A stretch of 64,000 bases of DNA from Rhizobium sp. Pop5. GTDB lineage: Bacteria; Pseudomonadota; Alphaproteobacteria; Rhizobiales; Rhizobiaceae. A program made the translations under genes and the position numbers. The notes below the pieces were generated by a model. It made no database searches. It worked only from the letters and a program-made list of their open reading frames with translations, and was not told where the DNA came from. The DNA lies in the NCBI RefSeq assembly GCF_024721175.1, contig NZ_CP099402.1, positions 558,001 through 622,000 of the forward strand, in the 5' to 3' direction. Each line of letters opens with the position of its first letter. Positions within the stretch are counted from its first letter, which is position 1. Below, one piece after another: positions 22,070 through 37,187 of this stretch.

Positions 22070-23419
22070 TCAGGCGCCGACAGCCTTTCCGGGCTCGACC
22101 TGCTCCGAACCCGCCGCATACCGGCTTTCGCGAAAGGGCAGGCCGAGATGATCGCGCAGCGTCTGCCCCTTCAGGACCGGGTCGAAATAGCCGCGTTCGG
22201 TGAGGATCGGCAGAACATATCTGGAGAAATCGTCGAGACCTTCGGCGATGACGGGAAAGCCGAGAATGAAGCCATCGGCGGCGCCCTGATCCACCCAGCG
22301 GATGATCTCGTTGGCGATATGCTCGGCGGTGCCGATGAAGGCAGTGCGCGGCGTTGCGGAATCGAGCGCGACCTGACGGAGAGTCAGACCCTTTTCACGC
22401 GCCGTCCTTTTGATGCGGTCCGTGGTGGCGCGGAAATTGTTCCTGCCGATATCGCCGAGTTCGGGGAACGGCTCGTCAAGCGGGTAAACGCTGAAATCAT
22501 GGTGATCGAAGAAGCGTCCGAGATAGAGCAGCGCCTCCTCTATCGTGACGAGATTACGGATCGCCTGGTACTTGGCTTCCGCCTCCACGGCTGTCGCGCC
22601 GACGATCGGCCCGATGCCGGGATAGATGCCGACTTCCGCGGCCCGGCGCCCGTGAGCGATGACGCTGTCCTTCAGCTGGCGATAAAAGGCCTGCGCCTCT
22701 TCGAAAGGACCGCCATTGGTGAAGACGGCATCGGCATGTTTGCCGGCGAGCCTGATACCGGAATCCGAGGCGCCCGCCTGGAAGACGACCGGTTGGCCCT
22801 GCTTCGAACGGCCGATGTTGAGCGGTCCCTCGACGCGGAAGAACCGGCCCTTATGGTTGAGGCGATGCATCTTCGCCTTGTCGACGAAGACGCCGGTCTC
22901 CCGGTTACGGATGAACGCGTCGTCGTCCCAGGAATCCCAGAGGCCCTTGATCGCATCGATATAGTCCTCGGCGATCTCGTAGCGCAGTTCATGCTCCGGA
23001 TGCTCGCGGCTGTAATTGCGCCCGGATCCCTTAAGCGGCGAGGTCACCGCATTCCACCCTGCCCGGCCGCCGCTGATGAGATCGATCGAGGCGAACTGGC
23101 GGGCGATGGTGAAGGGATCGCTGTAGGAGGTCGAGACCGTGCCGACGAGACCGATCTTCGAGGTCGAGGCTGCCAGCGCCGAGAGAATAGCGATCGGTTC
23201 GAACCGGTTGAGGAAATGCGGGATCGACTGCTCGTTGATATAAAGCCCGTCGGCGACGAAGGCGAAAGCGATGCCGGCCGCCTCCGCCTTGCGCGCCGTC
23301 TTGACGAAGAAATCGAAATTGACGCTCGCGTCTGCCGGCCCGCTCGGATGCTTCCAGGCATTCATGTGGCCGCCGGGACCCTGCAGCATGATGCCGAACG
23401 TGACGTGTTTCTGGGCCAT
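22070..23419 (-). CDS. NtaA/SnaA/DszA-family flavin monooxygenase
   Basis: A 449-residue protein of the long LLM subgroup that includes nitrilotriacetate monooxygenase NtaA, dibenzothiophene sulfone monooxygenase DszA and Bacillus YtnJ and YxeK. Signatures are HMNAWKHPSGPADASVNFDFFVKTARKAE, FEPIAILSALAASTSKIGLVGTVSTSYSDPF and the flavin-site SIDLISGGRAGWNAVTS. It uses reduced flavin supplied by a reductase not encoded in this operon. In Bacillus, close relatives oxidise N-acetyl-S-alkylcysteines. It is second in the operon, 24 bases after the first monooxygenase gene. Confidence 0.88.
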   Translation of the reverse strand: MAQKHVTFGIMLQGPGGHMNAWKHPSGPADASVNFDFFVKTARKAEAAGIAFAFVADGLYINEQSIPHFLNRFEPIAILSALAASTSKIGLVGTVSTSYSDPFTIARQFASIDLISGGRAGWNAVTSPLKGSGRNYSREHPEHELRYEIAEDYIDAIKGLWDSWDDDAFIRNRETGVFVDKAKMHRLNHKGRFFRVEGPLNIGRSKQGQPVVFQAGASDSGIRLAGKHADAVFTNGGPFEEAQAFYRQLKDSVIAHGRRAAEVGIYPGIGPIVGATAVEAEAKYQAIRNLVTIEEALLYLGRFFDHHDFSVYPLDEPFPELGDIGRNNFRATTDRIKRTAREKGLTLRQVALDSATPRTAFIGTAEHIANEIIRWVDQGAADGFILGFPVIAEGLDDFSRYVLPILTERGYFDPVLKGQTLRDHLGLPFRESRYAAGSEQVEPGKAVGA

Positions 23420-23443: not shown

Positions 23444-24436
23444 TCAGGCGACGAGTGAAAGGCGCTCCTTGGCGAGCAGCTCGATGGAGGCAAGGCGTTC
23501 GGCAGCCGAAAGGGCCGGCGTGTCGAGCACGAACTCCTTGACGCCATAACGACGGTGAAGTTCGTCGAGCTCCTTGCGGATCTGCTGTGCAGTGCCGTGC
23601 AGCACGCTCGGCACCTTTTCCTCGATGCGGTAATCGGTGACGCCGGCTTGGCGGGCGAATTCGGCCGCTTGCTCCTCGCTGCCGACATTGACGGTTTGGC
23701 CGTTCGGCAGGAACACCTTGACGATGCGCAGGTTGCCGACGCGCTCGCGGGCATAGTCCTCGCTTTCGGCGGCAAAGGCTGCGAGCGCCAGGATCGGGCT
23801 CTTGCCGCCGGATGCCCGCTCATAGGCGGCGAAGGTCTTGTCGAGATTATCGGGATCGCCGTTCAGATGGCCGGCGAAGACCAGCTCCCAGCCCTTCTCT
23901 GCTGCAAGCTCGGCGCTTTCGACGCTGGCGCCGAGCAGGAAACGTTCGGGAGCCGTCGGCGGGAAAGGGGTTGCGTGGGCGCCATCGTAATTCGGATCTG
24001 CGGCGAGATAGATGTTGATGTCGGCAAGCTGGCTCGCGAAATCCGGCTTCCTGGACGGATCGACGGCAAGCTGCAGGGCGCGCGTCGAGAGCGGAAAACC
24101 GCCCGGCGCCTTGCCGACGCCGAGATCGACGCGACCGGGCGCAAGCGATGCCAGGAGATTGAAGGTCTCGGCAACCTTGTAGGCGTTGTAGTGTTGCAGC
24201 ATCACGCCGCCGGAGCCGACCCGGATTCGTGATGTCCTGGCGAGAAGATAGGCGATCAGCGCCTCCGGCGCCGAACTCGCCAGGTTGGACATATTGTGAT
24301 GTTCGGCGACCCAGAAACGATGATAACCGAGTTCCTCGGCCCGGACGGCAATCTTGACCGTCGCCCGCAACGCGTCGGCGGCGGACAGGCCCTGTTCGAT
24401 CGGGCTTTTGTCGAGAAGGCTGAGGAGATAGGTCAT
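23444..24436 (-). CDS. MsnO8-family LLM-class oxidoreductase
   Basis: A 330-residue luciferase-like protein of the short MsnO8/YtmO group: the N-terminal SLLDKSPIEQG, WVAEHHNMSNLASSAPEALIAYLLARTSRIRVGSGGVMLQHYNAYKVAETF, and GRVDLGVGKAPGG are characteristic. Such proteins occur beside NtaA-like monooxygenases in sulfur-salvage operons. This is the first gene of the nine-gene operon. The promoter region upstream carries a GTCTA-N9-TAGAC inverted repeat at 24471-24489. Function is inferred from context. Confidence 0.85.
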   Translation of the reverse strand: MTYLLSLLDKSPIEQGLSAADALRATVKIAVRAEELGYHRFWVAEHHNMSNLASSAPEALIAYLLARTSRIRVGSGGVMLQHYNAYKVAETFNLLASLAPGRVDLGVGKAPGGFPLSTRALQLAVDPSRKPDFASQLADINIYLAADPNYDGAHATPFPPTAPERFLLGASVESAELAAEKGWELVFAGHLNGDPDNLDKTFAAYERASGGKSPILALAAFAAESEDYARERVGNLRIVKVFLPNGQTVNVGSEEQAAEFARQAGVTDYRIEEKVPSVLHGTAQQIRKELDELHRRYGVKEFVLDTPALSAAERLASIELLAKERLSLVA

Positions 24437-24833: not shown

Positions 24834-24860
24834 ATAACATGAGTACAAGAATCAAGTTTT
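24834..24860 (+). promoter_or_regulatory. Iron-responsive operator (RirA-type IRO) of the siderophore operon
   Basis: The sequence has the form ataacatga-N9-tcaagtttt, with the TGA-N9-TCA core at 24840-24854. That core is the known iron-responsive operator bound by RirA in Rhizobium and Agrobacterium. It lies 33-60 bases before the first gene of the operon. The same nine-base flanks occur in front of the TonB receptor gene at 37161-37187. The assignment to RirA is inferred. Confidence 0.72.
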
Positions 24861-24893: not shown

Positions 24894-25328
24894 GTGGCTG
24901 AAACCATGAAATTCCGTCTGCTATCCCCGCATAAGTTGATTCCCACCGAGGAGACCGATGCACGGAGGGTCGATGAAGTTCATGGCCTCATTTCCACGGC
25001 CGGCTGCTGGACAGTACCGATCATGGTGGAGAAGGACGCGCTTTTCGTGATGGACGGCCATCACCGTTTGGAAGTGGCGTTCCGGCTTGGGCTGCGTGCT
25101 GTTCCAACCCTTCTCCTCGACTACAGGAGCGTACGCGTCGAAGCCTGGAGGGCCGGCGAGACGATCACCCCAGCCGACATTTATGACATGGCCCGCAGCC
25201 GGCAAAAATTTCCGATCAAAACCACCCGCCACATTTTTCTGGATGACCTGCCGGCGTGCGACGTGAACCTTGGCGATCTTCGACAGTGGCACGGGCCACT
25301 TGATAATTCCGAGAGGCTCGCCGGATGA
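24894..25328 (+). CDS. ParB-like protein, SbnI-like (probable O-phosphoserine-forming kinase)
   Basis: A protein of 140-144 residues with a ParB/Srx-type N-terminal fold: LLSPHKLIPTEETDARRVDEVHGLI, IMVEKDALFVMDGHHRLEVAFRLG, with the DGHHR nucleotide motif. SbnI of the staphyloferrin B cluster is longer but has the same fold, and phosphorylates free serine to O-phospho-L-serine for SbnA. As first gene of this operon it likely supplies that substrate. The start is GTG 24894 or ATG 24906; neither has a strong ribosome site. It overlaps the next gene by four bases (ATGA). It could instead be only a regulator; the operon position argues for the enzyme. Confidence 0.7.
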   Translation: MAETMKFRLLSPHKLIPTEETDARRVDEVHGLISTAGCWTVPIMVEKDALFVMDGHHRLEVAFRLGLRAVPTLLLDYRSVRVEAWRAGETITPADIYDMARSRQKFPIKTTRHIFLDDLPACDVNLGDLRQWHGPLDNSERLAG

Positions 25329-26689
25329 CGTCCCACATCATCCCGATCACGGAGGCGGAGCTGTCTCCAATTCTCTCTCCTCTTGCTGCTGACATTCTGA
25401 CCGCGAGGGCGCCGCTCCTGCACAAATGGACCGAGGAATACGGGTCGCCGCTCCATCTCGTGCTTCCTTCGGAGCTCGACTCAAACGTCGAAGCCCTGCG
25501 CCGCGTTCTCGACGAACGGGAAGTCGGACACGCGATCTACTATGGTTCGAAAGTCAACAAATCCTCAAGCCTGATGCAGGCCGCACTCGGGGCAGGCGCA
25601 GGCATCGACGTGTCAAGTGTTTACGAGCTTCGTGATGCTGTGAAACTGGGGGCTCGGGGCAACGACATTGTGGCGACCGGCCCCGCAAAGACGGCGCAAT
25701 TTCATGACGAACTCGTCCGCATCGGGGCTCTCATCTGCGTGGACGGTCCGGAGGAACTGACCGACATATCGAAGCGCCTGCCAACCGATGGGGTGAAGCA
25801 GCCTGTCCTTTTGCGACTGCAGCCGAAAGGTCATGAGAAAAGCCGCTTTGGCATGGCTGCCGAGAAGATACGAGCCTGCCTGTCGCGCATCGCCTCCGAT
25901 GATCGTTTCCGCTTCGACGGCATACATTTCCATCTGAGCGGATATCGCTGGGAGGATCGGGCGGTTGCGTTTGAGGAGGCTGTCAAGCTGGTGGAGGAAG
26001 CACGCGCAATCGGACTTTCTCCTACGATGATCGATATCGGCGGCGGCTTGCCGGTCCAATATGTGTCTGAGGCGGCATGGGAAAAACATCTGCAGCGCCA
26101 AGGCGCCAATGATTTCCGCACCGGCAGAGTTCCGGCTTCCTTCTATCCCTACGGCGGTCCGCAATCTGCGGCGGCGTGGCTTGGCTGCTTTTTGGGTGCG
26201 CCACTGTCGTCGGGCCAGACGATCGAGAACTATCTCAAACAGCGCAAACTAACGCTCGCGATGGAGCCGGGGCGATCCCTTGTCGACCAGGCAGCGATTT
26301 CAGCTTTCCGTATTACACGCGTGAAGGATCTCGGCGGCGGAAATGGCGTGATTTTCGTCGAAGGCAGCAGTTTCAGCGCCTGCGAAACCTGGTTTGCTTC
26401 CGAATTCATGGTGGATCCGATCTTGCTGCGTCAGAACGACCGGGCTCGCGCGGGCCAGGCCTTCCGGGCCTACATAGCGGGACATAGCTGCCTCGATGAA
26501 GACGTCCTGAGCAATCGCTGGTTTGGCTTTCCCCAGGGTCCAGAGGCCGGAGACCTTCTCGTCTGGGCCAATACCGGCGGCTATCAGATGGATCTCCTCG
26601 AAAACGAGTTTCATCGCCACCCGATGCCCAAGCGGTTGTGCGTAACAAAGAGCGCAGCCGGTGAACTGTCGATCTATCCCGATAACTAG
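25325..26689 (+). CDS. PLP-dependent decarboxylase, SbnH-like
   Basis: A 454-residue fold-III decarboxylase of the diaminopimelate/ornithine group. The PLP Lys is K76 in YYGSKVNKSS; HFHLSGYRW and DIGGGLPVQY are the phosphate-binding and strand motifs, and SCLDEDVL carries the Cys-Asp pair for substrate carboxylate. SbnH decarboxylates the diaminopropionate part of a staphyloferrin B intermediate to give an ethylenediamine unit. Here it would do the same to the SbnA product. It overlaps the preceding gene by four bases and is followed by the SbnA-like gene after 11 bases. Confidence 0.85.
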   Translation: MTSHIIPITEAELSPILSPLAADILTARAPLLHKWTEEYGSPLHLVLPSELDSNVEALRRVLDEREVGHAIYYGSKVNKSSSLMQAALGAGAGIDVSSVYELRDAVKLGARGNDIVATGPAKTAQFHDELVRIGALICVDGPEELTDISKRLPTDGVKQPVLLRLQPKGHEKSRFGMAAEKIRACLSRIASDDRFRFDGIHFHLSGYRWEDRAVAFEEAVKLVEEARAIGLSPTMIDIGGGLPVQYVSEAAWEKHLQRQGANDFRTGRVPASFYPYGGPQSAAAWLGCFLGAPLSSGQTIENYLKQRKLTLAMEPGRSLVDQAAISAFRITRVKDLGGGNGVIFVEGSSFSACETWFASEFMVDPILLRQNDRARAGQAFRAYIAGHSCLDEDVLSNRWFGFPQGPEAGDLLVWANTGGYQMDLLENEFHRHPMPKRLCVTKSAAGELSIYPDN

Positions 26690-26700
26690 GAGAGGACATC

Positions 26701-27711
26701 ATGCTTCCCACGAATGTGACCCAATTGATTGGGCGCACCCCCGTCATGTCGATCGAGATCCCGAGCCGAGATTCCATCCTGGTATTGAAGATAGAAAAGA
26801 ACAATCCTGGCGGTTCCATGAAGGATCGCATGGCGCGCAGTATGGTCGTGGCCGCCTTGCAGGACGGCCGGCTTGCTCCGGGAGGTACAATTGTCGAATC
26901 CTCCTCGGGAAATACCGGTATCGGCCTGGCGCTGGCGGCGGTCGAGTTCGGGTTGAATTTCATTGCCGTCGTGGATCATCATGCCGCGCCGGACAAGATC
27001 CGCATGATGCGCGCGATCGGCGCCGAAATCCGCTACGTCGAAGGGGACTTCAGAGAAGATGAAGTTGCCGTCGTCGCCCGGCAGAGACTGGCAGCGCAGC
27101 TCGGCGCGCAACTGCCAGGCGCCATGTTCATGAACCAGTCCGACAATCCTGCCAATCCTGAAGGTTATGCTGACTATGTTGATGAACTGATGGAGCAGCT
27201 TCCCGACGGCATCGATGCATTTGTGGGATGCGTCGGCACCGGTGGGTCGATGACGGGCATTTCGCAGCGGCTGAAGCAGCGCTTGCCCACGATCCGCACG
27301 ATCGCCGTAGAACCCGCAGGCTCCATCGTGTTCGGACAACCGGGACATCCCTATTATCAGTCCGGAACCGGCACGCCGGCCGGCGACGAAGTCGGCAAGG
27401 TCCTCGACTACAGCTGCATTGACGAGGGCGTACAGGTTACCGATCAGCAGGCATTCGAAACGGCCCGCTATATTGCGCGTCGCAAGGCACTGCTCGTCGG
27501 CGGCTCGACAGGCGGGGCGATCTACAAGGCTCTCGAATTCATCGCTTCCGGCAAGTTGCAGGGGACCGTCGTGACGACCGTAGCCGACGGAGGAGAGAAA
27601 TATCTCGGTTCGGTCTTCGACGACGAATGGATGGCAAAGCGCGGCCTGTTCGACCCGTCGATTGCCGCTGAGCTCGATGCGTGGCTTTCCGGACAGGCAC
27701 GCGCGGCATGA
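26701..27711 (+). CDS. sbnA: SbnA-like PLP synthase (cysteine synthase family)
   Basis: A 336-residue fold-II PLP enzyme. The Schiff-base Lys is K41 in NNPGGSMKDRMA, the substrate loop is SSSGNTGIGLA, and the phosphate cup is GCVGTGGSMTG. SbnA replaces the phosphate of O-phosphoserine with an amino-acid nitrogen, forming an N-(2-amino-2-carboxyethyl) amino acid. In staphyloferrin B synthesis the partner is glutamate and SbnB then cuts the product. No SbnB is present here, so the whole adduct may be kept and the nucleophile may be another amino acid such as lysine (inference). The ATG has an AGGAG site; the gene overlaps the opine dehydrogenase start by four bases. Confidence 0.85.
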   Translation: MLPTNVTQLIGRTPVMSIEIPSRDSILVLKIEKNNPGGSMKDRMARSMVVAALQDGRLAPGGTIVESSSGNTGIGLALAAVEFGLNFIAVVDHHAAPDKIRMMRAIGAEIRYVEGDFREDEVAVVARQRLAAQLGAQLPGAMFMNQSDNPANPEGYADYVDELMEQLPDGIDAFVGCVGTGGSMTGISQRLKQRLPTIRTIAVEPAGSIVFGQPGHPYYQSGTGTPAGDEVGKVLDYSCIDEGVQVTDQQAFETARYIARRKALLVGGSTGGAIYKALEFIASGKLQGTVVTTVADGGEKYLGSVFDDEWMAKRGLFDPSIAAELDAWLSGQARAA

Positions 27712-28850
27712 AGGTCACAATATGCGGGGCCGGTCGAACCGGCCATCTGAATGCCGTCCTGTTCAAACAACGCGACGACGTAGACGTATCCGTTCTCACA
27801 TCGTCGACAGATCTCGCCGACAAATGGTCGAGTGGAGAACAGGTCTGGCGGGCGAATTTGCCCGAAGGCGGCGTTCTGGCGGGACGGATCGACCATGTTG
27901 GTACCGATCCGCAGACGGCACTCGCCGATGCGGATCTGGTCGTTGTGACGCAGCCTGCCCAAGCGCGACCGGCGCTCTTGCAGCAGATCGCGCCCCATCT
28001 GCCGGAAAACAAGCGGGTCTTTGTCGGAGCCATTCCGGGATTTTGCGGGTTCGACTGGCTGGCCGAGACTGCGTTCGGCGATCGCGAGAATATCGCGATC
28101 TGGGGGATGAAGGACGTTCCCCATACCGCCTACAATCTCGTCGCGGGCAGCGACGTGCGCATGGGTGGCGCAAAGGCTCAGCTCTATGCGGCGCTTCATC
28201 GTCGCGAGGCGGCAGCTGCGAAAGAAGAGTTGTCGGATCTGCTCGGCCGGCTCTATGAAGCGCCGGTCGGCATCCTCGACGACTATCTCGAGATTACGCT
28301 GACCCCAGGCAATGCGTTGATGCATCCGGCTGTCCTCTATGGGCTGGTCGGCCCTGGTGCCTCCTGGGAGGAACAGCCCTTCGATGGGCCGATCTGCTGG
28401 TGGAGCGATTGCCCGCGCACGGGCGCGGAAATGCTGGAAGCGTGCGATGCGGAAAATCAGGCGCTCAAGCACGCCGCCGAAAGGCGCCTCAAGATCGATT
28501 TGGCAAGCGTGAAGCCGCTTCGGCAAGAATTGATCGAGGCTTATGGCGACCAGATCGGCGATGACAGCACGATGTATTCCCTGCTGAGAACCAATAGCGC
28601 CTACGCCGGCATTCATGCGCCGCTCGTTGCCAACCCGGACGGTCCGGGTCTGGTGATCGATCGGGAAAGTCGCGCCTTTCATGAAGACATCGCTTTCGGT
28701 CAGGCGCTCCTCCTGGAAATAGCCAAGCGGCTGGATGTACCGGTGCCCGCGATCGAAACGACCTATCATTGGGCGCGGGCCTATCACGGCAATCTGCCGC
28801 AACCTCCTCTGAATTTTGTTCCCGTGACATGGGCGGAGGCAATCGGATGA
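27708..28850 (+). CDS. Opine (octopine/nopaline-type) dehydrogenase
   Basis: A 380-residue NAD(P)-dependent dehydrogenase. The Rossmann loop GAGRTGHLNA is at the N-terminus, and the C-terminal octopine-dehydrogenase domain includes EITLTPGNALMHPAVLYG with the conserved catalytic His. Enzymes of this family reductively join a keto acid (usually pyruvate) to an amine, giving N-(1-carboxyethyl) compounds; CntM and related enzymes do this in metallophore synthesis. It takes the place of SbnB in this Sbn-like operon and should add a carboxyethyl group to the siderophore backbone. Start ATG 27708 overlaps the upstream stop (ATGA); its own stop overlaps the synthetase start in the same way. Confidence 0.85.
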   Translation: MKVTICGAGRTGHLNAVLFKQRDDVDVSVLTSSTDLADKWSSGEQVWRANLPEGGVLAGRIDHVGTDPQTALADADLVVVTQPAQARPALLQQIAPHLPENKRVFVGAIPGFCGFDWLAETAFGDRENIAIWGMKDVPHTAYNLVAGSDVRMGGAKAQLYAALHRREAAAAKEELSDLLGRLYEAPVGILDDYLEITLTPGNALMHPAVLYGLVGPGASWEEQPFDGPICWWSDCPRTGAEMLEACDAENQALKHAAERRLKIDLASVKPLRQELIEAYGDQIGDDSTMYSLLRTNSAYAGIHAPLVANPDGPGLVIDRESRAFHEDIAFGQALLLEIAKRLDVPVPAIETTYHWARAYHGNLPQPPLNFVPVTWAEAIG

Positions 28851-30727
28851 ATGAAAATATCGTCAATTCCTATGCAGGTGAGAGAGATGCGCTCGACCCG
28901 CAGCTTCTCCAGCAGGCAAGGCACAACGCCCTGGCCCGCCTTGTGCGATGCCTCCTTGCCGAACGAATTCTCAATCCCGACGCCCTGCTTTGGTCCGCAG
29001 ATGGGACACAGGCATGGCTTCCGTTATGGTCTGCCAGAAAGGTACTCCATTTCGCAGACTTGCGACGTTTGCCGGCGAATACAATATTGAATGGCGGTGC
29101 GATCGAGATCGTCGATGACAGGGGCAGGCGGCGAAGACTGGAAGCGCCCGCCGATCTGGTCGCCGAGATCTCATCGGACTGGTCGGTCGAACCCGCTTCG
29201 GATGGGGTTGCCCGCCTGCTCGCCGATATCGAAAACAGCGTGCAGAACGACGCGTTGATCCGTCGTCACCGCCGGGATTGGATTGCGTCGCTGAACCTCG
29301 AAATTGCGGCTGGCGGCGACACTGGCCTCATTTCCCATCTTGGGCATACGCGTCCTGCACATCAGGCGGCCATGATGCTGGACCAGTGGGGGTCCTTGGA
29401 GGGACATCCTTTTTACCCGACCTGGAAGTCGAAGCCAGGCCTCACGGCGCAGGAGGTCGAAGCCTTGTCGCCGGAATTCGGCGCGCGCGTCAATCTCCGC
29501 ATCGCTGCGCTGCGGCAGGATTGGGCCTATGTGGAGATGATGCCCCATGTCGACAGCTATAACGGCTGGTTTCGCCACAATTACCCGGAGCTATGGGATG
29601 CCTGGGTCAAGGCTTTGACGGAAAGGGGGCAAACGCCTGCGGACTGGCTGCCCCTGCCGATTCACGCCTGGCACCTCGATCATTTTGTCCGCCGGGAATT
29701 TGCTGACGAGATCGCTTCCGGCGTGCTTGTGATCGATGGACCGGAGATTGTCACAATCCCCTCCATGTCCTTTCGCACGATGCTGCCGGACCTGGAAGAA
29801 GCAAGGCCGTTTGTCAAATTGCCGGTCGCCATCTGGATGACGAGCGAAATGCGGACCCTGCAGGCAAAGTCCATCCACATGGGCCCGAGGCTCAGCACCT
29901 TGATTTCCGACATTCTCGCAGCCGATGAAGCCATTGGAGGCGAACTGGAGTTCTTCCGCGAGGAGCTGGGTGCGATCTTCCACCATCCCGAAACGGGCGA
30001 TGAACATCCGGGCCGTTTCCTCTCCGTCGTCTATCGCGAGGCCGACGGCATCGCACGAAATGACGGTCTGATGCCCGTCACCGTGGCTGCCTTGCTGGCT
30101 GCCAGTCCCGTCGATGGTCGGCCGCTGATCTGCGAACTGATCGTGCGCATGGGCGATGATCGACGAGCGGCCGCAGAGTTCTTCCGCAATTATGCCGAGG
30201 TCGTTCTCAGGCCGACGATCGCCATGTATCTTTTGTATGGCATTGCCTTCGAAGCTCACCAGCAGAACAGTACCATACTCTTCAATCCATCAGGGCGCCC
30301 GCAGCGCCTGCTCATTCGCGACTTCGGTGATGGCCGCAGCTTCGCCCCGCTGTTCGAGACGCGAGGATATCAGCTGAAGCCGTTCAGCCGCGCCGGCATC
30401 TTGCCGACCACCTTCAATGACGACATCGCTCTTGTTCGCTCGTTCGTCATCGATGCCTGCTTCGTCTGCCATCTTCATGAAGTAGCGCTTTGCCTGAACG
30501 AACATTTCGGGCTCAGCGAAGCATGGTCGATCCTGAGGCAGAAGACGGAAGAAGCGTTTGACCGGGTACGACCCCGCATGCTGTCCGAAGAATTTTGGCT
30601 GGAGGAGCGGGACGCGTTTCTCAATCGCCCTTGGCCGACCCGTTCCGTCTTGCGCATGCATCTCGAGCGATATCGTGACTATCGTCTGGAGCATGAACTG
30701 CCAAACCCGCTGACAGAGACGCCATGA
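28847..30727 (+). CDS. NIS siderophore synthetase (IucA/IucC family)
   Basis: A 626-residue NRPS-independent siderophore synthetase, which activates a carboxylate (citrate, malate-like or similar) with ATP and couples it to an amine. Family features in order are [66 protein letters not shown], and the C-terminal FhuF-like [33 protein letters not shown]. It is the only NIS synthetase in the operon, so the product probably has one hydroxy-acid amide; staphyloferrin B needs three. It overlaps neighbours by four bases on both sides. Confidence 0.9.
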
Positions 30728-31956
30728 CGGGGACTGTTGCGGTTATACGAGGCTTCGGCCCGGTCTTTGCTATTCTCTTCGGCCTGCAGTTCATCTCCAT
30801 GGGTGCCATGGAGATGAGCGGTCCATTCTGGCCGTTGCGCATCGAGGAATTGTCGTCGTCAGGCGGAATCTTCGCACTGGCTGGAATCGGCGTCTATGTG
30901 TGCCCGATGATCGGCGTCTCTCTTACCAGCGCCCTGTGGGGAAGGATGGGGGACCGGTACGGCAACCGCCTGATGATGGTCAGAGCGCTTGCCGGGCTTG
31001 CCGTCACCCAGATCCTCGTTTCCTTTGCTCAGGACGTCTGGCTGATCCTGCTCCTGCGGTTTCTGCAGGGATGTTGCGCTGGCTATATCGCGCCAGCCCA
31101 GGCCTATGGCATCCAGATTACGGGCGGCCGCAACCGAGGGGTGCTTCTGACCTGGCTTCAGGTGGCGACCAATGTCGGTTCGCTCAGTGGCGCGTTCTTC
31201 GGCGGTCTCATCCTCGACGCATCCTCCTTCACGACGATCAACCTGACGGCGGGTCTCATCTGCGGCGTCTGCGCCGTCGCTGCCTGGGTGATCCTACCTC
31301 GGCCTGCGGCAGAAACGAGTGAAGCCGGTCGAGGCCAGGCTCGTCAAAATCAAGCATTCACAGGGCAGGCTGCGGCACCTGTCTGGGGCCTACTGGCGCT
31401 GACGGGAATGATGCTTGCCAGCCGAATGGTTTTGCAGGTGCCTTTCGCGCTGTACATGACTGAGGTCTTTCGAGCCCCGCACTGGGTCACCGGCTTCAGC
31501 TACGGCCTTCTGGCGCTCGGCTTTGTCGTGGCAGCGCCGCTCTGGGCGCAATTTTTCAACGACCGTCCGGCAAGCTTCATCCTTGGTTGGATGGTCCTTA
31601 TTGCCGGTGGATGTGCTTTGCTGACCAGTCTTGCCGGCCTGACCCGCTCTGTTGAATATTTTGCCGTGATCTATCTGTTCTGGGGCGGCCTGCTAGGCGG
31701 AACGACGCCCATCCTCGTGGCCCTCATGTCCGCAGCCACGGCCGATGGTCGTCAGGGCTCGGTACTGGGCACCGCCCAGTCCTGGCAACAGATCGCATCC
31801 GTGGCGGGGATAGCCATCGGAACGGGCACTGCCCAGATATTCGGGCTTACAAGCGTTTACCCTCTCGTGTCGCTGCTTTATGCGGCGTCCCTCTTTACTG
31901 CCCTCGGCCTGTGGTTCCTTGCACGCTCGCGCCTACCTGTTGGAGATTCCCTGTGA
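30724..31956 (+). CDS. MFS transporter, probable siderophore exporter
   Basis: A 410-residue major facilitator with about 12 membrane helices in two halves and the loop-2 motif [13 protein letters not shown] after helix 2. By position within the biosynthetic operon it matches SbnD, the staphyloferrin B exporter. The loop near residues 195-215 ([12 protein letters not shown]) is the expected central cytoplasmic linker. It overlaps the synthetase gene by ATGA and the binding-protein gene by GTGA. Export of the new siderophore is inferred from context. Confidence 0.85.
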
Positions 31957-33113
31957 CCTGCCTTCGCCTCTACGCGTTTGCGATAATCCTGTTGTTGACG
32001 CCGCTTACCGCTCTTTCTGCCCGCGCTGAAAATGACGCGGTCCCGCAAACGACTGTTACCGTCAAGGATATCGCCGGGCGGGACGTGCAGGTTAAGGTGC
32101 CCGTCTCCCGGATGCTACTCGGGGAAGGCAGACAACTCTATCTGATCGCCTCGCTCGACCGAGAGAATCCGCTGGAGCGCGTCGTCGCGTGGCGCAACGA
32201 TCTGATCGAAGCCGATCCTGCGACTTACAGGCAATATCTCGACAAATTTCCCGAGCTTGCGAAATTGCCGACCTTCAAGGGAAATGAAGGAAGTCTGATC
32301 GATATCGAATCGGCGATCGTGAAGAAACCCGACGTGGTTCTTCTCAACCTCGAAGCCAAACAGGCCAATGAAGACGCTCAGTATGTCGAGAAACTCGCAT
32401 CTCTCGACATACCAGTTCTCTACATCGATTTCAGGCACTACCCGCTTCAGAATGCCGACCCCACAATCCGGCTGCTCGGCAAGATCATGGGGCGCGAGGA
32501 GCGGGCAGAAGACGTGATTTCGTTCCGCAGACAGGCTATGGCTCGGGTCGAGGATGTGCTTGCCAAGATGAAGCCGGACCGCCCGAAGGTATTCATCGAA
32601 CGCATCGGCGGATATACGGAGGACTGCTGCCTTTCATTCGGTGCCGAGAATTTCGGCAAATATGTCGATTTGGCAGGCGGGCACAATATCGGCAGCGATT
32701 TCCTGCCCTCGACATTCGGGCAGCTCAGTCCCGAACAGGTGGTCGTCTCCAATCCCGATCATGTCATCGTCACCAGTGCCGATTGGCAGGCCTACGTGCC
32801 CGGCGGCCGCTGGATTCCGGTCGGCCCGAATGCAGATCTGGATGCCTCGAGGAAGAAGCTCGAATGGTATACCTTGCGGGATGCCTATGCCGGGACAACG
32901 GCGCAGAACAAGCGCAATTTCCACGCCATATGGCATCAGTTTTACAACAGTCCCTATGAATTTATCGCGGTCCAATGGATCGCAAAGTGGCTCCATCCCG
33001 ATCTCTTCGCCGATCTCGACCCGGACCGGACATTTGCCGAATACCACAAGCGCTTTCTTCCGATCGGCTATCAACCCGGCTACGCCGTCAGCCTCGATAC
33101 CCAAGCACCATGA
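31953..33113 (+). CDS. Iron-siderophore ABC transporter substrate-binding protein
   Basis: A 386-residue cluster A binding protein of the FepB/FecB type. A signal peptide ([20 protein letters not shown]) is followed by [21 protein letters not shown], the usual opening strand. The GTG at 31953 overlaps the exporter stop by GTGA and gives a complete signal peptide; an earlier frame start at 31911 would lie inside the exporter gene. It should capture the ferric siderophore in the periplasm after the TonB receptor and deliver it to the permease encoded next. Confidence 0.88.
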
Positions 33114-34177
33114 CCGAAACCGTGACAACCATGGGCCACGTTAATGCGGTCGGCCGCTATCGCCTCGCAAGTCTCAGAAAACATCTTGTGCTTTGTCTGC
33201 TGCTTGCAGCCGTTGTCCTTGTGTTTCTCGCAGATATTGCCACAGGTCCAGCCTGGTACGGACTGGACGATGTGCTGAAGACCGTGCTGATACCTGCCGA
33301 TGCGCAGCCCCAGATGCGCGTCGTGGTCTGGTCCATCCGGATGCCCTCGGCCCTCATGGCTGTTGTCGTTGGAATGGCGCTGGCAACCGCCGGCGTTCAG
33401 ATGCAGACGGTGCTCAACAACCCGCTCGCGAGCCCGTTCACTCTTGGAATTTCATCCGCGGCAAGCTTCGGTGCGGCGCTCGCTCTCGCTTTTGGCCTGT
33501 CCTTCATTCCGGTCGCCGGCGACTATATCGTTGCGGTCAACGCCTTCATCATGGCGCTTGGATCCGCCCTCATCATCCATTCCGTGGGATTGCGGCGGGG
33601 AAGCTCGGTCCAAACGATCGTGTTGCTTGGCATCGCGCTGGTGTTCAGCTTCAATACCGCGTTGGCGATGGTCCAGTATTTTGCAAACGATCAGGCTGTT
33701 GCTGCCATCGTGTTCTGGACGATGGGCAGCCTGACCAAGGCAACCTGGCCGAAGCTTGCCGTGACAGTCGCCGTCCTGGTTCTGACCATTCCCATCTTCG
33801 TCTATCGACGCTGGCAGTTGACAGCACTTCGGCTCGGAGAGGCTCGCGCAGCGTCCTTCGGAATTCCGGTTCGTCGCCTTCGGTTGGAAACGCTCGTGCT
33901 CATATCGCTCCTGTCGTCCATTCCGGTCGCATTTGTCGGAACGATCGGCTTTGTCGGACTTGTGGCGCCACATATCGCGAGGATGCTTGTCGGTGAGGAT
34001 CAGCGGCACTTGCTTCCTGCCAGCGCCATGATCGGAGCCCTGATCATGTCATCCAGTTCCACGGTCGCGAAAGTTCTCGTGCCGGGCGCGGTTTTGCCGA
34101 TCGGCGTCATCACCGCCGTCATAGGCCTGCCGGTATTCTTTTATCTTATCCTGAAGGGAGGGCGGGAAACGTGGTAG
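33110..34177 (+). CDS. FecCD-family iron-siderophore permease
   Basis: A 355-residue permease with about ten membrane helices. Family motifs include IRMPSALMAVVVGMALATAGVQMQTVLNNPLASPFTLGISSAASFGAALAL near the N-terminus and VAFVGTIGFVGLVAPHIARMLVGEDQRHLLPASAMIGAL near the C-terminus. A single permease gene implies a homodimer. ATG 33110 overlaps the binding-protein stop by four bases; the gene end overlaps the ATPase start by seven. Confidence 0.92.
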   Translation: MTETVTTMGHVNAVGRYRLASLRKHLVLCLLLAAVVLVFLADIATGPAWYGLDDVLKTVLIPADAQPQMRVVVWSIRMPSALMAVVVGMALATAGVQMQTVLNNPLASPFTLGISSAASFGAALALAFGLSFIPVAGDYIVAVNAFIMALGSALIIHSVGLRRGSSVQTIVLLGIALVFSFNTALAMVQYFANDQAVAAIVFWTMGSLTKATWPKLAVTVAVLVLTIPIFVYRRWQLTALRLGEARAASFGIPVRRLRLETLVLISLLSSIPVAFVGTIGFVGLVAPHIARMLVGEDQRHLLPASAMIGALIMSSSSTVAKVLVPGAVLPIGVITAVIGLPVFFYLILKGGRETW

Positions 34178-34923
34178 TACTCAGCACAAAAGCGTTGGGG
34201 GCGGTTTACGGCACGCGGCCTGTCCTGAGCGAGGTATCATTGCCTCCATGCCACGGAGGAGAAATCATCGCGCTGATCGGAGCCAATGCAGCCGGCAAGT
34301 CAACGCTTCTGCGTCGTATAGCCGGAATTCTTCCGGGTGCCGGAGAATGTCGGCTGGCGGGTGTTGACGATCGCGAAACGGCGATCGCTTACATGCCGCA
34401 GGATCAGGTGAGCGGAGCAGCGTTGACCGTCTTCGAAGCCGTGCTTTTGGCGCGCAAGCAGACCAGCGGCTGGAAGCTGGCTGACGCAGATCTCCATGAG
34501 GTCGAGCGGGCATTGGCCGCCCTGCAAATCGCTGATCTTGGCTCCGAATATGTTTCGGAGTTGAGCGGCGGTCAGCGCCAGCTCGTGGCCCTTGCGCAAT
34601 GCGTCGTCCGTGCTCCGACGGTGCTGCTTCTCGACGAGCCGACGAGCGCCCTTGATCTCCATCGTCAGTTCGACGTCATGAGGCATGTCAGGTCGCTGGC
34701 GAGGGAAAAGGGACTGCTCGTCATCATCGCGGTGCATGACCTGAATCTGGCGATGAAGTTTGCAGACAAGATCGCCATTCTTGCGCATGGAACACTGCAT
34801 GCTTTCGGCCCGGTCACCGAAGTGCTGACGCCCGGAAATCTCGAGGCGGCATTTCGTGTGAAAAGCCGGCTCGAGACATGTTCGCAAGGCAAGCTTCACC
34901 TGATCGTCGATGATGCAGTGTGA
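34171..34923 (+). CDS. Iron-siderophore ABC transporter ATP-binding protein
   Basis: A 250-residue FecE/FepC-type ATPase: Walker A GANAAGKST, signature LSGGQRQLVALAQ, Walker [14 protein letters not shown] and the switch His in IIAVHDLN. It starts with GTG at 34171 after AGGGAGG and overlaps the permease gene by seven bases. It is the last gene of the plus-strand operon and ends 27 bases before the stop of the convergent TonB receptor gene. Confidence 0.93.
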   Translation: MVVLSTKALGAVYGTRPVLSEVSLPPCHGGEIIALIGANAAGKSTLLRRIAGILPGAGECRLAGVDDRETAIAYMPQDQVSGAALTVFEAVLLARKQTSGWKLADADLHEVERALAALQIADLGSEYVSELSGGQRQLVALAQCVVRAPTVLLLDEPTSALDLHRQFDVMRHVRSLAREKGLLVIIAVHDLNLAMKFADKIAILAHGTLHAFGPVTEVLTPGNLEAAFRVKSRLETCSQGKLHLIVDDAV

Positions 34924-34950: not shown

Positions 34951-37095
34951 TCAGAAGTCTGTGGTTATCGATACCTTGAAGGTGCGCGGCGCACCCTGGG
35001 CGATCGTGCTGAAGCTGGCGACCCCTGACCAGTAGTCCTTATCGAACACGTTTTCGACGGAGGCTCGGAATGTGACGGGCCTCGTTTCGATTTCCGTCTT
35101 GTAGCGCGCGCCGAGGTCAAGCCGCGTCCAGGAAGGGATCTTCAGCGTGTTCGTCGTGTTGATATACTGTTCGCCGGTGTGAATGACATTGGCCGTCAGC
35201 GTCAGGCCTTCCAGGAAAGACGCGTCCCATTCGGCTCCGATGTTCGCCTGGATCTTCGGCACGCCGATCGGGCGCTTGCCGCGGGTCGCAGCGCTCGAGG
35301 TATTCGTCAGTTCTCCATCCATCAGCACCAAGCCGCCAAGCAAGCGCAGATCGTCCGTGACTTCGCCAAACACGTTGAATTCAATGCCGCGGTTGCGCTG
35401 TTCCCCGCCAGCGGTAAAGATCTGGCCGCCGCCGCTCGGCTCCAACTGGCCGAAGGGCTTCTCGATCTGGAATGCACTGACGGTCATTGCAATCTGTCCG
35501 AGGTCGACTTTGGTACCGATCTCGTATTGTGTCGTCTTGTATGGAGCGAGCGTTTCGCCCGCATTGATGGCCGTGGTGGGAGCCGTGTCGCCTATGCTCA
35601 GGCCCTGCGCGTAGTTGGCATAGAAGGAAACCTCGTCCCAGGGGCGGACGACGAGGCCAACGAGGGGCGTGACGGCGTCCTCGTCCGAAGACGATGACAC
35701 GGCGCCTGTTGTTGCATTGAAGTTCTTAGAATCGATCTGCTGGAAGCGACCGCCAAGAGTGAGCTGCACGCGCTCGTCGAGCATCGACAAGGTGTCCGAC
35801 AGGCCGACGCCGGACAGCCTGGCTTCGGAGACCTTCGGCACTGAACTGGGATTGGCGACGAACTGCTCGATACGACGGACGGGGTCGTACATATTGCTCA
35901 GCTGGGCAGTGCCTGAGACGATCGCACGATCGAGGCTCTGGTGGAGATAGCTCGCCTGCAGGGTCATTGTGTGGGAGATCGGCCCCGTGTCAAACTTGGT
36001 GCGGATACCCGTTTCTGCCGTAAGTCTGTCGACGTCGAACACCGCATTCTGTGGCGTGATGGTGACATCGCCGGCCGAATTCAGGATGGTCGGCAGACCA
36101 AAAAGGCGATGCACGTGAGAATTGCCGCCACCCACGGCGCCAAACCAGGTGATATCGTCGGTCAGATCATATTCGACCCTGCCCAGGACCGAGCGGTCCG
36201 CGCTCTTCGACCACTCCCACGGCTCCTGGACATTGAGCGATCCGTCGGGTGCGCTCGGCACGATCAAACCGGTGGTTTGAAAGAAGGGACGCTGCGGCGC
36301 GTCAAAAGTTTCGCGCTGTCCGATCACGTCGAGTGTGGCTCGAAGATTTTCCCCCTGATAATCAAGAGCCAGGGCTCCAACATAAAAGTCCCGTGTCTGA
36401 TTATCGATCGGGGTGTCACCACCGTGGGCACTGCCGTTCAAGCGGATGCCAAATTGCCGTTCGTCGCCGAACCGTCGCGACACGTCGACATGAACACCAC
36501 CCTGAAAGTCGGAAGCGTAATCCGTCGTCAGCCTCGTCAAATCCTCATCGAGCGCTCGCTTCGGAACGATGTTGATGGTGCCGCCGACGGCGCTGTTAGG
36601 AGAGATTCCGTAAAGGAAAGCTGTCGGACCCTTCAGCACCTCGACCCGCTCGGCATATTCGGTGAAAACCCGGTACGTGGGGGCGATGCCATAAATCCCA
36701 TCAAACGCGATTTCGCCGGCATTGCCTTCGCCGACCGGAAAGCCTCTGATGTAGAACGAGTCCAACATTCCCCCTGAGGAATGGGTATTTCTGACAGACG
36801 GATCGTTATCCATCACATCGCCCACGGTCTGGGCACCCTGGTCCTCGATTTTCTGAGATGTATACCCAGTCACATTAAAAGGGGTCTCCATGAAATCCCG
36901 GTTTCCCAGAGCCCCCAGGCGTGCGCCTTTCGCGACCTGACCGCCTGCATATTCTTCCGGGAGGGTTCCGATCGTGGACGTGGCGTCTTTCTTCGCAGTA
37001 ATAACTATTGGTGCCAATTCGGTGGCACTCTGCCCGTATGCGGCACCGTTTGCCACAGCGGTCACCACTACTGTGCACCCCAACATAAACTTCAT
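34951..37095 (-). CDS. TonB-dependent siderophore receptor
   Basis: A 714-residue outer-membrane receptor. A signal peptide (MLGCTVVVTAVANGAAYG) is followed by a TonB-box-like LAPIVITAKK, a plug domain with QTVGDVMDNDPSVR and FYIRGFPV, then a 22-strand barrel ending in the typical VENVFDKDYW and a C-terminal Phe. It resembles FhuA/FoxA-type hydroxamate and carboxylate receptors. It is convergent with the siderophore operon and shares its iron-box sequence, so it should take up the ferric form of the operon's product. There is no N-terminal signalling extension, so it is not a surface-signalling receptor. Confidence 0.93.
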   Translation of the reverse strand: MKFMLGCTVVVTAVANGAAYGQSATELAPIVITAKKDATSTIGTLPEEYAGGQVAKGARLGALGNRDFMETPFNVTGYTSQKIEDQGAQTVGDVMDNDPSVRNTHSSGGMLDSFYIRGFPVGEGNAGEIAFDGIYGIAPTYRVFTEYAERVEVLKGPTAFLYGISPNSAVGGTINIVPKRALDEDLTRLTTDYASDFQGGVHVDVSRRFGDERQFGIRLNGSAHGGDTPIDNQTRDFYVGALALDYQGENLRATLDVIGQRETFDAPQRPFFQTTGLIVPSAPDGSLNVQEPWEWSKSADRSVLGRVEYDLTDDITWFGAVGGGNSHVHRLFGLPTILNSAGDVTITPQNAVFDVDRLTAETGIRTKFDTGPISHTMTLQASYLHQSLDRAIVSGTAQLSNMYDPVRRIEQFVANPSSVPKVSEARLSGVGLSDTLSMLDERVQLTLGGRFQQIDSKNFNATTGAVSSSSDEDAVTPLVGLVVRPWDEVSFYANYAQGLSIGDTAPTTAINAGETLAPYKTTQYEIGTKVDLGQIAMTVSAFQIEKPFGQLEPSGGGQIFTAGGEQRNRGIEFNVFGEVTDDLRLLGGLVLMDGELTNTSSAATRGKRPIGVPKIQANIGAEWDASFLEGLTLTANVIHTGEQYINTTNTLKIPSWTRLDLGARYKTEIETRPVTFRASVENVFDKDYWSGVASFSTIAQGAPRTFKVSITTDF

Positions 37096-37160: not shown

Positions 37161-37187
37161 ATAACATGATAAAATATGTCAAGTTTT
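37161..37187 (-). promoter_or_regulatory. Iron-responsive operator (RirA-type IRO) of the TonB receptor gene
   Basis: Read on the plus strand it is ataacatga-N9-tcaagtttt with the core TGA-N9-TCA at 37167-37181, 66-92 bases upstream of the receptor start. The two nine-base flanks are identical to those at 24834-24860 in front of the biosynthetic operon. The core matches the RirA iron-responsive operator. Confidence 0.72.

Follow-up and report, generated by a model that had tools for sequence, protein, structure and literature searches.

Rhizobactin, one of few natural chelators based on ethylenediamine, was described in 1984-85 (as cited in PMC7676072). It is also made, together with rhizobactin B, by Pseudomonas sp. 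FEN, where high-resolution mass spectrometry (MS), tandem MS and nuclear magnetic resonance (NMR) gave C15H27O8N3 (m/z 378.1866) for rhizobactin and C16H29O8N3 (392.2020) for rhizobactin B, with NMR placing citramalate in the latter where the former has malate (PMC7676072). Its authors pointed to rhbAB homologues and left the biosynthesis open (PMC7676072). Two other described systems share enzymes with the genes studied here. The proteobactin (pbt) operon of Proteus mirabilis is reported to be iron-repressed and to be needed, along with nrp, for chelation (PMC11026637), and the y4y/y4x genes of Sinorhizobium fredii have been called enigmatic, with flavonoid-dependent expression of y4xP and a y4xP mutant that nodulated one soybean better (PMC3973906). 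Here we describe, in a 64,000-nucleotide stretch of Rhizobium sp. Pop5 (the window; C5:558001-622000 of a 6.74-Mb, Rhizobium-like genome), an operon that very probably makes, exports and re-imports an aminopolycarboxylate siderophore of the rhizobactin type. No earlier paper assigning rhizobactin genes was found in the literature searched, which covered few subscription papers and preprints.

A candidate rhizobactin operon and its counterpart in Pseudomonas sp. FEN

Nine open genes, all on the + strand, run from 24894 to 34923 of the window, and the tight packing described in the original prediction (four- or seven-base overlaps except for one 11-base gap) is indeed found: neighbors overlap by 4 bases at six junctions and by 7 bases at one, and a single gap measures 11 bases. 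They encode an SbnI/SerK-like protein, a Y4yA-family decarboxylase, an SbnA-like enzyme, an enzyme of the octopine dehydrogenase family, a single IucA/IucC synthetase of the nonribosomal peptide synthetase-independent siderophore (NIS) type, an exporter and an ATP-binding cassette (ABC) importer. The labels first given to them (SbnI-, SbnH- and SbnA-like, octopine-type dehydrogenase, IucA/IucC, major facilitator superfamily [MFS] and ABC) were borne out by domain searches, with the cautions that the SbnA-like protein falls below its cut-off and that the SbnI-like one is short and lacks a Pfam match. The TonB siderophore receptor that follows on the - strand belongs with these nine genes. The features are as follows (PLP, pyridoxal phosphate).

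24840..24854, + strand: TGA-N9-TCA motif (RirA iro-box-like), TGAGTACAAGAATCA, 54 bases upstream of the first gene's GTG
24894..25328, + strand: short SbnI/SerK-like protein, proposed O-phosphoserine maker (GTG start; ATG at 24906 possible)
25325..26689, + strand: Y4yA-family PLP decarboxylase (SbnH/LysA-like); proposed substrate, the diaminopropionate unit (domain searches, conserved Lys)
26701..27711, + strand: SbnA-like PLP beta-replacement enzyme, proposed to link O-phosphoserine to the lysine alpha nitrogen (domain searches, Lys41)
27708..28850, + strand: octopine-dehydrogenase-family enzyme, proposed to add carboxyethyl from pyruvate (Octopine_DH domain, PDB match)
28847..30727, + strand: IucA/IucC (NIS) synthetase, proposed maker of the malyl amide at N6 (domain searches; only IucA_IucC match in its own genome)
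30724..31956, + strand: MFS exporter, FslB-like (domain searches)
31953..33113, + strand: periplasmic siderophore-binding protein (domain searches)
33110..34177, + strand: FecCD-type permease (domain searches)
34171..34923, + strand: siderophore ABC transporter ATPase (domain searches)
34951..37095, - strand: TonB-dependent siderophore receptor (TIGR01783, 372.2 bits; cut-off 223.5)
37167..37181, - strand: TGA-N9-TCA motif, 72 bases upstream of where the receptor gene starts

The genome of the published producer, Pseudomonas sp. FEN, contains a homologous cluster (locus L079) with genes for the SbnI-like protein (38% identical to that of the window), Y4yA decarboxylase (51%), SbnA-like enzyme (69%), dehydrogenase (53%), NIS synthetase (51%), MFS exporter (49%), receptor (57%) and binding protein (60%). 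Homologues of the complete biosynthetic set of five genes, and of the exporter, receptor and binding-protein genes, are gathered at one locus of a known rhizobactin producer, which lends strong support to the original proposal of a rhizobactin-type pathway. The FEN cluster differs by the addition of CitE-like and SufS-like genes as well as of a pair resembling fecI/fecR (SufS-like and fecI/fecR assigned by reading the sequence). Genome-wide searches of FEN gave one IucA_IucC match and one Octopine_DH match, both inside this locus, and nothing above the cut-off for the SbnB family.

The formula sum of lysine plus a diaminopropionate unit, minus CO2, plus pyruvate and malate is C15H27N3O8, with m/z 378.1871 against the published 378.1866, so the five enzymatic steps that had been expected to yield the rhizobactin scaffold do add up to it. 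With citramalate the sum becomes C16H29N3O8 (392.2027), in agreement with published rhizobactin B, and with citrate the value is 436.1926. Gene set, homology, conservation, the FEN match and this mass bookkeeping are direct observations. It is very unlikely that FEN makes its rhizobactins with genes located elsewhere, such as rhbAB-like ones, and uses this cluster for some other chelator. The FEN authors did name rhbAB homologues, but the only IucA_IucC and Octopine_DH matches of that genome lie in the cluster, and the authors reported no further siderophore in FEN (PMC7676072). Moreover, enzymes of the rhbAB type belong to the pathway of rhizobactin 1021, a citrate hydroxamate chemically distinct from rhizobactin, and for this reason the rhbAB-like genes were not adopted as rhizobactin genes.

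Proposed biosynthetic route

The enzyme substrates, the order of steps, the regulation and the use of malate by this strain are inferred. The SbnI-like protein would phosphorylate serine. It is very short, with no Pfam match and 36.5 bits against the NCBIfam SerK model (cut-off of 380 not reached). It carries the SerK/SbnI fold, a Glu aligned with SerK E30 and conserved DG-H-R and K-T-R-H motifs, and on the grounds of fold and catalytic Glu we propose it as a putative O-phosphoserine-forming kinase. The SbnA-like enzyme, in which Lys41 is conserved in 86/86 alignment rows, would then swap the phosphate of O-phosphoserine for the alpha nitrogen of lysine. It reaches 239.7 bits with the SbnA equivalog TIGR03945 (227.5 for the FEN protein), below the cut-off of 349.95, and our reading is that it probably works like SbnA while not being filed as SbnA. 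The product, N2-(2-amino-2-carboxyethyl)lysine, would stay whole as the scaffold because the SbnB that would cleave it is absent; the best SbnB-family match in the genome has 137.8 bits against a cut-off of 326.9 and lies outside the operon (C5:710699-711667).

The Y4yA decarboxylase (Lys 76/79 invariant, 86/86 rows) would next take off the new carboxyl, leaving an ethylenediamine arm that the opine dehydrogenase would join to pyruvate. This dehydrogenase matches octopine dehydrogenase in the PDB (2.8e-32), and its His206 and Asp327, present in 86/86 rows, align with the catalytic His212/Asp329 of octopine dehydrogenase. Finally, the single NIS synthetase would add malate at N6, the MFS protein would export the product and the TonB receptor and ABC system would import it. 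Pfam searches of the ten proteins (operon plus receptor) revealed no nicotianamine-synthase-like enzyme of the kind that makes staphylopine-type opine metallophores.

A different order or pairing of these steps appears unlikely to us, with the SbnA-like enzyme joining O-phosphoserine to alanine and the dehydrogenase then linking the keto acid of lysine to what the decarboxylase leaves, or with the dehydrogenase acting before the decarboxylase. The resulting formula would be the same, and sequences fix no substrates; against this, pyruvate is the typical substrate of octopine-dehydrogenase-family enzymes, and the keto acid of lysine cyclizes readily. There is a small chance that the same scaffold enzymes build an analogue from another block (citryl for malyl or ornithine for lysine) rather than rhizobactin itself. 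The identities of the synthetase and dehydrogenase to those of FEN are only ~51 to 53%, the best NIS model for the synthetase of the window is the rhizoferrin synthetase FslA, a citrate enzyme, and the rhizobial clusters form their own well-supported clade in the NIS tree. However, the residues examined in the synthetase, like the active-site-type residues of the other enzymes, show little or no variation across 85-86 rows. Besides, FEN itself makes the malyl form (PMC7676072), and the first source of rhizobactin was a Sinorhizobium (as cited in PMC7676072).

The presence of SbnI-, SbnA- and SbnH-like genes could also point to a pathway of the staphyloferrin B type, with glutamate as nitrogen donor, the dehydrogenase in place of SbnB and SbnH-type decarboxylation of citryl-diaminopropionate. 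In staphyloferrin B synthesis, SbnA and SbnB proceed through an adduct with glutamate. We consider such a pathway extremely improbable here and rejected it: its three NIS synthetases contrast with the single IucA_IucC match of the Pop5 genome, and FEN, which carries the same cluster and also has one match, makes rhizobactins. Neither genome has an SbnB-family match over the cut-off. This alternative, named in the original prediction as one that could overturn it, therefore fails, and we retain the rhizobactin-type route.

Distribution of the cluster and choice of the acid

The comparison with other genomes was based on 85 related loci, 80 of them from a scan of genome contigs (the best 80 of 95 confirmed places) and five from a plasmid collection. 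Loci were fetched through the dehydrogenase, the presence of which is thus by construction, and some are cut by contig ends. The decarboxylase, SbnA-like enzyme, dehydrogenase and synthetase occur together in 85/85 loci, accompanied by the MFS exporter in 84, the SbnI-like gene in 79, the receptor in 79 and the binding protein in 71. In the plasmid collection, tblastn with the dehydrogenase matched 45 records, including S. fredii pNGR234a, Sinorhizobium meliloti USDA1021, Serratia and Proteus mirabilis. The USDA1021 cluster lies on an accessory plasmid of the species to which the original producer, DM4, belongs. Six betaproteobacterial clusters (L042, L043, L060, L077, L082 and L088) keep the other enzymes with no SbnI-like gene detected within ~21 kb, so O-phosphoserine there may come from general serine metabolism.

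The closest relatives of the synthetase are found in Rhizobium species (94% identity in L010). A search of 148 Rhizobium genomes, for the synthetase only, gave matches in 17, one of them at only 28-30% identity (G117) and another covering only a third of the query (G094). A gene of the operon's type is present in only 16/148, and this sparse occurrence, taken with the location of some clusters on plasmids, is suggestive of horizontal spread. One genome (G042) has two such genes (C3:366646-368490 and C4:953207-955075; 60% and 67% identical to that of the window) and perhaps holds two copies of the cluster.

A gene for a CitE/RipC-like lyase is present in every Pseudomonas locus (21) and every Enterobacterales locus (8), whereas none was detected in the remaining 56 of the 85. 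Its best NCBIfam model is RipC, a lyase of itaconate degradation (160.8 bits in FEN, below the cut-off of 375). From the one chemically characterized strain, we hypothesize that this lyase probably supplies the citramalate of rhizobactin B in Pseudomonas and Enterobacterales, and that clusters lacking it, including that of the window, may draw malate from central metabolism, malate being the acid in the rhizobactin of S. meliloti DM4.

A SufS/cysteine-desulfurase-like PLP enzyme stands beside the cluster in 22/85 loci (for example, L079:14257-15504 and L007:12495-13679). We considered it as the citramalate determinant, but two of these loci (L059 and L075) have no CitE-like gene and it is absent from the Proteus (L006) and Pectobacterium loci. 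Since its distribution does not match that of the CitE-like gene, we claim no role for it.

Possible iron control

Boxes of the form TGA-N9-TCA were counted in a chosen set of rhizobia and relatives (L004, L005, L008-L039 and L073). One is found 5' of the operon in 22/35 loci, 21/35 at positions -47 to -67, and 5' of the receptor in 22 of the 30 loci that have it. At random, 813/10500 stretches of 250 bases from these loci hold one; for the receptor, where 350 bases were searched, this background is higher. In the whole window the motif occurs 22 times against 12.9 expected, and 3/100 shuffles reach as many, a count only weakly above chance, so the case for the boxes rests on their conserved position. 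Of seven Bradyrhizobium loci, a single one has a box 5' of the operon, and this box is placed differently, in keeping with the absence, to our knowledge, of RirA from that genus. RirA is encoded in the Pop5 genome (288.5 bits, cut-off of 193). These data suggest that the operon and the receptor are under iron control, in which RirA would repress through the TGA-N9-TCA boxes.

Neighboring genes

Directly 5' of the operon are two open reading frames (ORFs) on the - strand, 22070-23419 and 23444-24436, whose translations resemble flavin-dependent monooxygenases. These, an M20 gene and a GntR gene gave no tblastn match (1e-30) in the related loci collected by then, and hence none is treated as a member of the system. 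A role of the monooxygenase genes in rhizobactin catabolism was dropped on this basis, and they are probably unrelated to the siderophore operon.

Comparison with known systems

The pbt operon (PMI0229-0239) resembles that of the window in its NIS synthetase, PLP decarboxylase, SbnA-like enzyme, octopine-type dehydrogenase, MFS protein, binding protein, TonB receptor and ABC genes. The P. mirabilis locus L006, equated with pbt by gene content and order as given in PMC11026637 and not by locus tags, also has a short SbnI-like gene, which takes the place of a hypothetical protein in the gene list of the review. It differs in its gene order, in an extra CitE-like gene and in its dehydrogenase (46% identical). 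The consulted part of the review gives no structure for proteobactin (PMC11026637).

On S. fredii pNGR234a (L004:6219-13264), y4yB-y4yA-y4xP-y4xO-y4xN-y4xM are six genes arranged exactly as in the window, with a dehydrogenase 67% identical. In contrast, the setting of this module is the symbiotic type III secretion region, where nopX and nopL flank it, with no binding protein, receptor or importer in the stretch examined and no TGA-N9-TCA in the 250 bases examined. It is possibly a siderophore pathway moved to plant-signal control. Synthetase copies near-identical to that of pNGR234a are present in L032 and L033.

Several points weigh against our assignment. The only-match counts in FEN come from a genome of unstated completeness. 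The SbnA model, below its cut-off for the SbnA-like protein, is level with cystathionine beta-synthase. The S. fredii counterpart of that protein, Y4xP, is reported to be a cysteine synthase (Lorio 2006 as cited in PMC3973906), an activity that counts against the proposed reaction or at the least lies beside it. The SbnI-like gene is undetected in 6/85 loci. In P. mirabilis, chelation was visibly impaired in the nrp/pbt double mutant but not in mutants of pbt alone, and the review favors a type B synthetase using oxaloacetate (PMC11026637). Finally, the split by CitE-like gene amounts to one change on the NIS tree, at a weakly supported branch (Shimodaira-Hasegawa-like approximate likelihood ratio test [SH-aLRT] of 75), so that the link to citramalate depends on one chemically characterized strain.

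With rhizobactin 1021 (rhbABCDEF) the operon shares only the name, the host genus and the NIS logic, as that siderophore is a hydroxamate made by other genes (PMC7676072). With staphyloferrin B (sbn) it has in common the SbnI-, SbnA- and SbnH-like enzymes; free diaminopropionate is made there by SbnA and SbnB jointly (PMC3179956). The operon differs from sbn in having no SbnB, no SbnG seen among its genes and one NIS synthetase versus three (SbnC, SbnE and SbnF). On balance, we favor the view that one widespread cluster type, misclassified until now, encodes rhizobactins, taking in proteobactin, S. fredii y4y/y4x and the pseudomonad, Pectobacterium, Burkholderiales and Thalassospira clusters, in which the SbnA reaction would be halted before cleavage, the amino acid kept as scaffold and malate or citramalate set by a cluster-encoded CitE-like enzyme. 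If true, this would name the rhizobactin genes, account for the y4y/y4x genes, which have been called enigmatic and lie next to a secretion system for nodulation, predict the structure class of proteobactin and reveal a new use for SbnA-type chemistry.

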